From assembly GCA_018402155.1 (NCBI GenBank), contig JAGYJG010000001.1, forward strand, positions 1,252,198 to 1,316,197: a DNA stretch of 64,000 nucleotides. The letters run 5' to 3'. Below, one piece after another: positions 44,815-49,723 of this stretch. A program made the translations under genes and the position numbers. Numbering within the stretch: the stretch's first letter is position 1; every line of letters starts with the position of its first letter. The notes under the pieces were generated by a model. The model was not told the origin of the DNA, searched no databases, and saw only the letters and a list, made by a program, of their open reading frames with translations. This DNA comes from Bacteroidia bacterium (GTDB lineage: Bacteria > Bacteroidota > Bacteroidia > NS11-12g > UBA9320).

Positions 44815-44831
44815 GTAATATAGAATATTCA

Positions 44832-44839
44832 CAAAGGTA
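44832..44839 (-). promoter_or_regulatory. -7 promoter element of mvaD
   Basis: Minus-strand TACCTTTG, 17 nt before the chosen ATG at 44814; it rules out the GTG at 44832 as a start. Confidence 0.65.
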
Positions 44840-45186
44840 AACGTTGATAGATTTTTAACACTAATGTTCTAGCGTGTATTTTAAACACAAAGGCACTTAT
44901 CCGTACACATTCCCATTTTACGTATAAGAAGATGATTCTAGTAGCTCAACCTTTTAGAAAGGTCCCTACGTTTTTCACATAGTGGAAATGATTTAGAGCA
45001 AAGCGAGAAATCTCATTTTAATCTCTGTTGAACATTGCCAATCCATCTACTTGCGAATAGATTTTCAAAAATATAAGCTACATGACAGGTGAATTAAAAA
45101 TTCCGAACCACAACTTGAAATGTCTGACTTTGCTACTCTAAAATCATAGTTCACCTTTTGTCTCCACTCAAGATGACTAATACACA
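44840..45186. other. Non-coding spacer between mvaD and the GHMP kinase gene
   Basis: About 350 bp without a gene. It contains GAGCAAAGCGAGAAATCTCA at 44996-45015, which resembles a dispersed repeat motif (GAGATTTCTCGCT…) that I recall from Bacteroidota genomes; it could be a decayed repeat copy. Confidence 0.5.
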
Positions 45187-46152
45187 TTACTTTACCAACT
45201 CAGAATAAGTCAATACCGTAGTATAACCTTTATCTTTGAAATAGTGTGGCGTGTTTTCGTCTCCACACGCGAGTATGAAATCTCCTCCCCACGCTCCGAG
45301 ACTTTTGATGGCGAATGGATAATCACCAAAGAGCTTTTCTTTCACTGTGGGCATTTCTATCTGGCCAGCTATGAGCGATTCGTGCTCATTGATCAGCTCC
45401 TGAAAAGTATCAAAATCTTGGCAGGCTATCAGCTCCTCGGTAAGATTAGAAATACGCTCTATCAATTTAGCGTTTCTAACTTTCTGCTTGTACATGGCAA
45501 TTCCTTCGCGGCTATTCTGTTTCTCATTGAGATGCACCAAGTACAAGTGCCCTCTAAACGGCGGATTATATACGTAGCCTTCCCACATCTCTGGACTGCG
45601 GTAGAGAATATCTCCGCCTAACATCCCAACTGCTATATCGTATCCGCTTCCACCAAAGCTAGCTTCGGAAAGTTCGAAAGCGTCTACTTCTGCCCATTTA
45701 GCCATATTGCAAATGAGTGTACTACTGCTTCCTAGCCCCCAATTATTCGGAAAATCCAGATAAGTGCGCACCGTATAGCTTCCCCCTTCTAAGAACCACG
45801 AGTTCATAGCACAAGCCTTGTTCAGTATTTTTACGAGTGAGTCGCTTACTGCATTGATGTTGCAGAGGTCCGTAGGGTTGAGTTTAACACTTCGACAACT
45901 CTGGGTCAGGCTGAGCGGAGTCGAAGCCTCGCCACGAGAGCCTTCCTCAATAAGAAACTCTTCTCTATACCAAGTTTCGCCTTCACTGTCTATGCTGTAC
46001 CATGTTATGGTATTCTCACCGCCCAGATTCTCGCTAAAATCCACTTCCATGCGCTGACCGTATTTGGTAGGAACAGCTAGAGAGAGTGCTCCGTCTAGGA
46101 CCACATACTCCCCTGTGATTAATAATTTGCCGTGTGAAAAGAAAGATTGCAC
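45187..46152 (-). CDS. GYDIA family GHMP kinase (putative mevalonate or phosphomevalonate kinase)
   Basis: A 321-residue GHMP-superfamily kinase with FFSHGKLLITGEYVVLDGA (3-21), the ATP loop NNWGLGSSSTL (about 135-145), GGSGYDIAVGMLGGD, which names the family, and a C-terminal GAWGGDFILACGD. It lies among HMG-CoA reductase, mvaD and IPP isomerase genes, so it should phosphorylate mevalonate or phosphomevalonate; which one is not established. GTG start, promoter 4 nt upstream. Residues about 75-90 (STPLSLTQSCRSVK) are encoded by a REP-like palindrome, which lengthens a variable loop before the ATP site without breaking the frame. Confidence 0.9.
   Translation of the reverse strand: MQSFFSHGKLLITGEYVVLDGALSLAVPTKYGQRMEVDFSENLGGENTITWYSIDSEGETWYREEFLIEEGSRGEASTPLSLTQSCRSVKLNPTDLCNINAVSDSLVKILNKACAMNSWFLEGGSYTVRTYLDFPNNWGLGSSSTLICNMAKWAEVDAFELSEASFGGSGYDIAVGMLGGDILYRSPEMWEGYVYNPPFRGHLYLVHLNEKQNSREGIAMYKQKVRNAKLIERISNLTEELIACQDFDTFQELINEHESLIAGQIEMPTVKEKLFGDYPFAIKSLGAWGGDFILACGDENTPHYFKDKGYTTVLTYSELVK
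45890..45926. repeat. REP-like palindromic repeat within the GHMP kinase gene
   Basis: A 37-bp element with 7-bp arms CTTCGAC (45890-45896) and GTCGAAG (45920-45926) and inner complementary TCAG/CTGA around one G. The plus-strand core GTCAGGCTGAGCGGAGTCGA is the widely dispersed intergenic repeat motif seen in many environmental bacterial genomes. It is in frame in the kinase coding sequence. Confidence 0.75.
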
Positions 46153-46156
46153 GCTG

Positions 46157-46164
46157 CGAAGGTA
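46157..46164 (-). promoter_or_regulatory. -7 promoter element of the GHMP kinase gene
   Basis: Minus-strand TACCTTCG ends 4 nt before the GTG start at 46152, implying leaderless transcription. Confidence 0.6.
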
Positions 46165-46197
46165 GTTACTTAGGTGATTAGTTGCTTGGCGGCTTTG

Positions 46198-46749
46198 TTA
46201 CGGTGTGATGATAATTGGGTCTGTGGTGGTTTCGAAGATTTTACCTTCAGTAGTTTCAATTCTAATCTTAAACTGATAAGACTCCGTTTTAGCGGGAGGT
46301 GACTTAGGTCTCAAGTACATTTCTATGGGCACATTCCAAAACTCATTTCCTCTAAGAGAATCAATATTTATAAAGCTTTCATAATATCTCTCTGCCATCT
46401 CCCAGACCGTAGTATATGTTTCATCTAAGTCTACTATAGAAATTTTATCTATAAACCAATTTGAATTTGGCGGTGGACAAGGTGCTGTCGCATATAAAGA
46501 TGATGAGTTGCTCAGATATGAAATTAATTCTGTTTTAAAATTCACTTTCAGTACAAATTCATCAAAGGCTACCGAATCTATTCTAAGCGATTTCAAATAG
46601 CTGTTACTATCCGTCATTAAGAACTGAGTGCTATCAATTGCTACCACATTGTAAGAATTAGATTTACAAGCAGAGGGGTTATCATCACACCCCCACTCCA
46701 ACGCTATGAGCCCTATCAGTCCCAAAAGTAGAAGTATATTTCGTTTCAT
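46198..46749 (-). CDS. Lipoprotein of unknown function
   Basis: A 183-residue protein with a lipoprotein signal (LIGLIALEWGC, lipid-anchored Cys about residue 21). I do not recognise the mature part; it is beta-rich, with a C-terminal stretch ESYQFKIRIETTEGKIFETTT that looks like an immunoglobulin-like strand pattern. It sits between HMG-CoA reductase and the GHMP kinase on the same strand with its own -7 element. A role in isoprenoid synthesis is unlikely for an envelope protein. Confidence 0.65.
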   Translation of the reverse strand: MKRNILLLLGLIGLIALEWGCDDNPSACKSNSYNVVAIDSTQFLMTDSNSYLKSLRIDSVAFDEFVLKVNFKTELISYLSNSSSLYATAPCPPPNSNWFIDKISIVDLDETYTTVWEMAERYYESFINIDSLRGNEFWNVPIEMYLRPKSPPAKTESYQFKIRIETTEGKIFETTTDPIIITP

Positions 46750-46757
46750 ATTTTTAA

Positions 46758-48307: not shown

Positions 48308-48628
48308 TCAACTCATAAGTGCAACAAACTTATTATTGAGTTTTTGAAAATCCGCAACACCTACAAACTCTAGATTGGCAGCTAAGATTAATACATTCTC
48401 AACTTCTATGGAAGAACCATAAGAGTAGTGCAAAAACTGAACAAGTTGTTTATTTGTATCCCTACCGCGTCGTTCAGCTATATTATTCGTAATTGAGATT
48501 GTTGCTCGACGTAATTGACTAGTAAGCCCAAACTTTTCATCGTCTTGGAAAGACTTAGATATTGAATAAATGTCTTTGGTAAAGACTCTAGCCTTCTTCC
48601 AAACGTTAAATTTCTTAAAATCGTGCAT
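48308..48628 (-). CDS. Four-helix-bundle protein (23S rRNA IVS/S23 family), C-terminally truncated by an in-frame TGA
   Basis: A 106-residue protein of the S23/IVP family, first known from 23S rRNA intervening sequences; relatives include the Avd protein of diversity-generating retroelements. HDFKKFNVWKKA, FGLTSQLRRATISITNNIAE and FLHYSYGSSIEVENVL are typical. Translation past the TGA at 48308-48310 gives TQQMLFTLIHKFKE and then TAA at 48263, which matches the normal end of this family (an amphipathic last helix). The full frame would be about 121 residues, the usual length. So the gene carries a recent nonsense mutation, or the base is a sequencing error. It sits between two mevalonate genes and is flanked by inverted repeats. 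Confidence 0.85.
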   Translation of the reverse strand: MHDFKKFNVWKKARVFTKDIYSISKSFQDDEKFGLTSQLRRATISITNNIAERRGRDTNKQLVQFLHYSYGSSIEVENVLILAANLEFVGVADFQKLNNKFVALMS

Positions 48629-48740
48629 CTAAATAATCTATGGTCTCAACTCTTTTCAACTCTTATCCCAAATCTTTTCATCTCTTATCTCAATTCTCTT
48701 AATATCTTTAACTCAAGTCTCTCAATCTCTCAATCTCAAA
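48629..48740 (-). repeat. GAGATTGAGA-type degenerate tandem repeats, 5' flank of the four-helix-bundle gene
   Basis: On the minus strand this stretch is a run of purine-rich units such as GAGATTGAGAGATTGAGAGA, GAATTGAGATAAGAGATGAA and AAAGAGTTGAGACC. It fills the whole gap to the isomerase gene and even encodes the isomerase's last five residues (LRLRD). The unit TTGAGACCATAGAT mirrors TTGAGACATTAGAT on the other side of the gene. Confidence 0.65.
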
Positions 48741-49723
48741 TAAGTATGAGCCAGCTTCAATCCATTCAACTGCAATTCTACATACTCCTCTAGCTCAGCA
48801 TAGCTGCCCCTTGCGTGTTTCAAAAAAGCCGAAGCTTGTCCGTAAATGGCATTAGCATTTATACGTTGGGTATGGTAATATCCATCCATAAAATCGCGTA
48901 CACCACCACTGATTATTATATCCGCACCATAGTTAGTCTCGTTCATTTCTGTGGTCAACTTATTATAAAAGCCTACCATTTCTTCGGCGCTGTGCCCCCA
49001 TGCTGCTACTTTATCATATGCTTCGTGCCTCATGGTATCGCTGCGGTGCATTTCTAGTTTGCTAAAATTGGTACCTCCATGAGCACCAAAATCAATAGCA
49101 GTGAGCGGTAATTTCATTAATGCTTCCAAACTTTCTGGTCCAAAACCTTGACCAACTTCTTTTACAATAACTTTGATACCTAAGTCTAGCGTACTTTTTA
49201 TAATATCGAGTGGTGATTTTCTAAAAATATCGCCTTCGGGTTGTAGCCACTCTTGCAGCGGATTTACGTGTATAATAAGCCCATCTGTTTCTGTGCGTTT
49301 GATCAGTTCTACTATTCGATTTTGATCACCAGCATCAAATAATTCTTCAATCTGTGCAACACCTAAATTAGCATAAAGCGGAAAATCACCCATCTCTTTT
49401 CGAAGCTGAAAATCAGGTAAAAATTCATCGTCTTTTAAAATTATTCGACAACTTCCTAGCCCCATTCCCAAACCAAACTGTCCACAAGCTTTGGCGAGAT
49501 TTCTGTTAATAATTCCGGCCTCTTTTGTTCCCCCCGTCATACTGCTCACCCAAAGCGGTGCTTTCATTTGCTTTCCTGCAAACGTAACAGGTTCTAAATC
49601 TCCTTTCGGGTGTCCGCTAAAAAGCGGCTCATAGTAAAAGCGTTGGTCTTGATTAGCTACCACAGACTCAAAAGCAAGTTCAATGTGGTCTTTTTTACGG
49701 TCGGATGTTTGTGTATGTCCCAA
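48722..49723 (-). CDS. fni: Type 2 isopentenyl-diphosphate delta-isomerase
   Basis: This FMN- and NADPH-dependent enzyme interconverts isopentenyl and dimethylallyl diphosphate. The 333 residues show RKKDHIELA at the N terminus, the TIM-barrel FMN-binding segments (WVSSMTGGTKEA, GLGMGLGS, ANLGVAQ, HVNPLQE and IDFGAHGGTNF) and IIISGGVRDFMDG. The start is TTG at 49723, 5 nt after a -7 element. The last codons lie in the repeat tract that borders the neighbouring four-helix-bundle gene. With mvaD, the kinase and HMG-CoA reductase it forms the mevalonate cluster. Confidence 0.94.
   Translation of the reverse strand: MGHTQTSDRKKDHIELAFESVVANQDQRFYYEPLFSGHPKGDLEPVTFAGKQMKAPLWVSSMTGGTKEAGIINRNLAKACGQFGLGMGLGSCRIILKDDEFLPDFQLRKEMGDFPLYANLGVAQIEELFDAGDQNRIVELIKRTETDGLIIHVNPLQEWLQPEGDIFRKSPLDIIKSTLDLGIKVIVKEVGQGFGPESLEALMKLPLTAIDFGAHGGTNFSKLEMHRSDTMRHEAYDKVAAWGHSAEEMVGFYNKLTTEMNETNYGADIIISGGVRDFMDGYYHTQRINANAIYGQASAFLKHARGSYAELEEYVELQLNGLKLAHTYLRLRD

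Follow-up and report, generated by a model that had tools for sequence, protein, structure and literature searches.

How does a palindromic repeat, of a kind normally seen between genes, come to be read as part of a kinase? The question arises in the window, that is, the whole 64,000-nt stretch of DNA analysed here, where a 37-bp imperfect palindrome, CTTCGACAACTCTGGGTCAGGCTGAGCGGAGTCGAAG, lies inside a minus-strand GHMP kinase gene (Table 1). An earlier reading of this DNA, made from the letters alone, had described the palindrome as a dispersed repeat that is translated in frame in a variable loop of a kinase with intact motifs, and had taken it for a recent insertion, caught in the act of becoming protein sequence. 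The outline of this description is borne out: both 7-bp arms, CTTCGAC (45890-45896) and GTCGAAG (45920-45926), are present, and the kinase frame stays open across the palindrome, reading ...EASTPLSLTQSCRSVK... and yielding, as predicted translation of the insert-spanning stretch, EASTPLSLTQSCR. The gene product matches the NCBIfam profile NF040656 (GYDIA family GHMP kinase) with 347.3 bits, passing the curated cut-off of 225, and its predicted fold is nearest to those of mevalonate and phosphomevalonate kinases. The motifs GKL (near the N-terminus), WGLGSSS and KSLGAWGGDF are all in place, as had been claimed, and are conserved among 26 relatives.

Table 1. Features of the kinase locus, in coordinates of the window.
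Feature	Position	Strand	Basis or remark
GYDIA-family GHMP kinase gene with insert	45187..46152	-	321-aa frame; NCBIfam profile, predicted fold
Extra kinase loop, residues 72-85 (SRGEASTPLSLTQS plus edge)	45895..45939	-	AlphaFold2 models with and without insert; alignment; interval extends one codon 3' of the loop (residue 86)
37-bp imperfect palindrome	45890..45926	.	Outer arm 45890-45896 unconserved in other carriers
REP-like hairpin unit, 25 bp	45905..45929	-	Stem covariation over copies; present in G005 and G013 kinases
Raised identity to G005 (kinase, intergenic stretch, small ORF 46198-46749)	44820..46750	.	Putative exchange; ends approximate

The palindrome does not coincide with the element that is conserved. 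Its CTTCGAC arm is altered in the genomes G005 and G013, both of which carry the insert, so that the 37-bp length is partly fortuitous; judged from the copies compared, the conserved element is the 25-bp unit alone. On the minus strand, this unit reads AGGC-TTCGACTCCGCTCA-GCCT followed by TGAC, corresponding to a stem AGGC/GCCT, a 14-nt loop TTCGACTCCGCTCA and an end that reads as a GTC tag on the opposite strand, and it is a perfect consensus copy. Across 71 copies the 14-nt loop, TTCGACTNCGCTCA, is fixed, while the closing stem bases vary jointly: position 2 of the stem pairs in 55 copies and position 3 in 49, with 23 and 21 expected if the bases were independent. When the copies were de-duplicated (51 copies from 26 genomes), Watson-Crick combinations filled 105 of 153 cells, a value that none of 10000 shuffles reached, and the pairing was lost when the stem register was slid. 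On this comparative evidence, the element is a hairpin with a covarying stem. GTC directly precedes the stem in 49/71 copies (TGTC in 21, CGTC in 7), a count inflated by copies that were found with a GTC-containing pattern, and the outer stem pair is A-T in 36/71. Neighbouring copies at most 150 bp apart are oppositely oriented in 20 of 27 pairs, an approximate figure, as some loci overlap. At G002:C58 (L076), G002:C73 (L081) and G010:C6 (L075), the repeat takes the form of a second subtype, roughly CACTTCGACTCCGCTCAGYACAGGCTT, without the TGAC end.

Is the unit then a dispersed repeat? In this genome it is not. Its 20-bp core has a single match in the window, where shuffles lead one to expect none, and, with as many as three mismatches allowed, no second copy anywhere in the 2.49-Mb genome; a looser 18-position pattern likewise finds one copy. 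The sequence-only reading had named the lack of further genomic copies beforehand as a finding that would tell against it, and here its picture fails. Among relatives it holds: with up to two mismatches, the core occurs in 23 of 197 genomes, this one counted, at up to 92 copies per genome, whereas the reversed control pattern has no match in the 197. Most copies in this class-wide sample lie outside long ORFs. Within the genus, the looser pattern counts 16 copies in G005, 5 in G010, 4 in G013 and 2 in G002, against 0 or 1 for its reversed control in the same genomes; the counts for G005 and G013 are uncertain because both genomes are fragmented and incomplete (73% and 70%). All genome copy counts come from pattern searches. 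Matches near the N-termini of L041 and L051, which may represent upstream non-coding DNA, were left uncounted. A match at L046 (G070), in which the TTCGAC part is missing, was set aside as a chance resemblance.

A mobilising partner did not emerge from these searches. No Y1 transposase was found in this genome, none of 28 Y1-transposase loci carries the repeat, G147, with its 92 copies, has no match to the Y1 transposase family PF01797, and an Rfam search with seven repeat-bearing loci returned no family matching the element; neither a transposition event nor a target duplication nor a mobilising enzyme was found. As a separate observation, the orthologous GHMP kinase gene of a different family in this order has a Y1-type transposase gene some 230 bp away (G053:C2:79248-80715, L117), with no repeat copy within 1.5 kb.

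What the insert does to the protein can be gauged from AlphaFold2 models. In the insert-free kinase of G012, strands 58-69 and 72-77 are linked by a 2-residue turn, whereas in the kinase studied here strands 60-71 and 86-91 are linked by a 14-residue loop, and pLDDT falls below 50 in this model only at residues 74-77 and 80-83, both within that loop. Together with the absence of the segment from more distant members of the genus, this agrees with the proposed variable loop, and the models are most simply read as showing a beta turn expanded into a disordered surface loop that the enzyme would tolerate. One could suppose instead that the segment is a functional feature of the kinase, for example an interaction loop, which is kept by selection and resembles the repeat only incidentally; the frame is, after all, maintained in three species, and the 25-bp unit is identical in this genome and in G005. 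We regard this as improbable, given that the unit matches the consensus of a dispersed hairpin exactly, with no match expected by chance, and given the presence of the same peptide in unrelated enzymes, the differing residues and lengths at this site in G002, G010 and G006, and the low model confidence in the loop. For a synonymous-site comparison, the insert offers just 14 codons.

The distribution of the insert across the genus bears on its age. The kinases of G005 and G013, which are 88% (G005) and 83% identical to the one studied here, carry the same insert at the same codons, with the 25-bp unit and the 20-bp core unchanged in G005 and two changes in the core in G013. At the same turn, the G002 kinase has the other repeat subtype in another frame, resembling the non-coding copy L076 of its own genome; G010 and G006 have short extra segments alone; and the insert is missing from the kinases of G012, G018, G004 and G001 as well as from those of more distant species. 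The homologue alignment that the sequence-only reading had proposed therefore cuts both ways, since the segment is absent from distant species, as foreseen, but present in G005 and G013. Being common to these two genomes, it is not a fresh insertion in this one. An insertion that took place recently in this genome would fit the absence of the segment from most of the genus and the perfect consensus sequence of the unit, but it would require three identical independent insertions into the same codons and has no source copy in the genome, so that we consider it very unlikely and the phrase "caught in the act" misplaced. The part of the claim that stands is that a repeat became protein sequence, as indicated by the in-frame unit, the predicted translation and the insert-free orthologues. 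Although the relatives are mostly metagenome-assembled genomes, the chance that an assembly or binning artefact has produced this pattern is practically negligible, given a genome that is 99.6% complete, a 2.4-Mb contig around the window and the same insert in two separate assemblies. The empty turn, the insert, the other subtype in another frame and the shortened forms make up a natural series in which the absorption of repeat DNA by proteins can be tested.

If the insertion event happened outside this genome, as we infer, the allele may have reached it by descent or by exchange. Identity to G005, measured per 90 bp, is 73-96% over a tract of about 1.9 kb, compared with 60-83%, mostly 60-76%, in the neighbouring mvaD. 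The protein encoded by the small minus-strand ORF in this tract is 87% identical to that of G005 and 30-57% to those of others in the genus, while the mvaD product, at 72%, is scarcely nearer to G005 than to the others; next to the 88% of the kinase, MeaB and MutA reach 77-79% and urocanase 84% (for a G005 fragment). In the kinase tree this genome (G000) groups with G005 and G013 (support 84/88), whereas three other genes place it, weakly, outside the G005/G013 group; the corresponding tree tests for exchange, with p-AU values of 0.037 for the kinase and 0.069 for the three other genes, are suggestive only. The unusual similarity of the 1.9-kb tract to G005 suggests that a kinase allele with the repeat was exchanged between lineages, and copy numbers would make a repeat-bearing relative the donor and this genome the recipient.

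Descent without exchange also deserves consideration. A single insertion before G000, G005 and G013 diverged (possibly early enough to include G002, G010 and G006, with later erosion), followed by loss of the other copies here, would accord with the kinase tree, with the extra codons at the site in G002, G010 and G006, and with the shared RS-V-x-L codons after it. It sits poorly with a fast-evolving neighbouring ORF that is close to G005 alone, with an mvaD that is no nearer to G005 than to others, and with the three genes that set G000, albeit weakly, outside the G005/G013 group; we therefore hold it to be a lesser possibility, rather doubtful than not. The account that we think is probably correct is that a unit of the REP-like family entered the coding sequence of the GHMP kinase in a species ancestral or related to this one, and that homologous exchange with a repeat-bearing relative such as G005 or G013 then brought the kinase allele, along with the small gene next to it, into this genome. 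It is also the most economical one, with the repeat arriving as part of the allele and in-frame insertion recurring as a trait of the genus. A lone repeat in a gene thus need not signal local transposition, as an allele can be imported.

The kinase is not the only enzyme with such a segment. Of the 23 copies inspected within the genus, 12 are in frame with an ORF of at least 120 codons. In-frame copies are found in the GHMP kinase of three species; in methylmalonyl-CoA mutase (MutA), with one linker affected in G005 and a second one in both G010 and G013, the repeat at this shared linker being read in the PSTQLKMT frame in G010 and in the NDSAQSDE frame in G013; in MeaB of G010 and, in a related form, of G005; in a TIGR02757-like protein of G015; at the C-terminus of a 508-codon ORF of G005; and in a uracil-DNA glycosylase ORF of G005, which has two copies in inverted orientation. 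Urocanase (HutU) of G010 also has one in its N-terminal region, a weaker case because this N-terminus is variable throughout the genus. Elsewhere in the class, copies occur in frame in LeuRS (G183) and ClpB (G128). Orthologues without the segment could be aligned for methylmalonyl-CoA mutase (both sites) and MeaB, and the unit is open in four of its six reading frames. Insertions of this kind would survive where the frame stays open through the unit and the net length is divisible by three, and such inserts would then persist in surface turns and linkers as near-neutral extra residues. Two features were unexpected, namely that the same linkers are struck repeatedly in different frames and that an altered allele has probably spread by recombination. 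Tentatively, one may generalise that a low-copy, transposase-less hairpin inserts time and again, in frame, into the same flexible linkers of core-metabolism enzymes and that the altered alleles spread between species by recombination, in which case selfish DNA would be a source of new peptide segments, which last longer in the recipient than the repeat family itself.

Among known systems, the nearest is the CGTC REP superfamily. REPs with a CGTC tag occur in several phyla, Bacteroidetes included, lack a transposase, form chiefly inverted dimers and have intragenic copies, which, as the authors suggest, may be tolerated in flexible linkers and loops (Di Nocera, De Gregorio, Rocco 2013, PMC3733652). 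The element described here shares with them the short hairpin, the common outer A-T pair, the inverted dimers, the intragenic copies and the absence of a linked transposase gene; its GTC-type end may correspond to their unpaired tag. In contrast to the 8-9 bp stem, with A-T pairs first, and the 4-5 nt loop of the CGTC families (PMC3733652), it has about 4-5 stem pairs and a 14-nt loop, the base before GTC varies, and no CCA tail was seen. Given these stem and loop lengths, we file it as a related family rather than a proven member: a dispersed, apparently transposase-less, GTC-tagged family of REP-like hairpins in Bacteroidota. GTAG REPs, which are linked to REP-associated tyrosine transposases (RAYT), are likewise dispersed short hairpins, often in inverted pairs, but the present element has neither a GTAG tag nor copies flanking a RAYT gene. 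In a similar fashion, the Rickettsia palindromic elements, of which RPE-4 and RPE-6 are CGTC elements (PMC3733652), lie in frame in unrelated genes (Ogata 2000 and 2002, reviewed in PMC10969869) and are apparently tolerated by the proteins; while classic RPEs measure about 150 bp, with 44 in R. conorii (PMC10969869), the units here have about 25 bp and are few per genome. A text search of an open library of papers found none with the repeat sequence, and on REP/RAYT or intragenic palindromes in Bacteroidetes only Di Nocera 2013 (PMC3733652) was clearly relevant. The locus adds a newly documented example to a known phenomenon, the protein-coding REP insertion, which is best known from Rickettsia and is here extended to an uncultured genus of Bacteroidota, with orthologues with and without the insert at hand.

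Some further observations concern individual loci. The LeuRS ORF with the in-frame repeat (L048, G183:C55, reverse strand) also holds a DUF559-like domain at residues 614-722. At L084 (G005:C363, 834-1919, minus strand), an ORF continues into uracil-DNA glycosylase across two inverted repeat copies; its first part presumably resembles a GIY-YIG nuclease, and read-through of the repeat dimer may have fused the two parts. The small ORF beside the kinase has a lipoprotein-like start and no Pfam match, and is fast-evolving except in comparison with G005. Finally, at 48308-48628 on the minus strand, a gene for a 23S rRNA intervening-sequence protein (PF05635, E 1.8e-29) is located between an HMG-CoA reductase-like ORF and the cluster ORF 48722-49723; the G002 copy of this protein is 54% identical.
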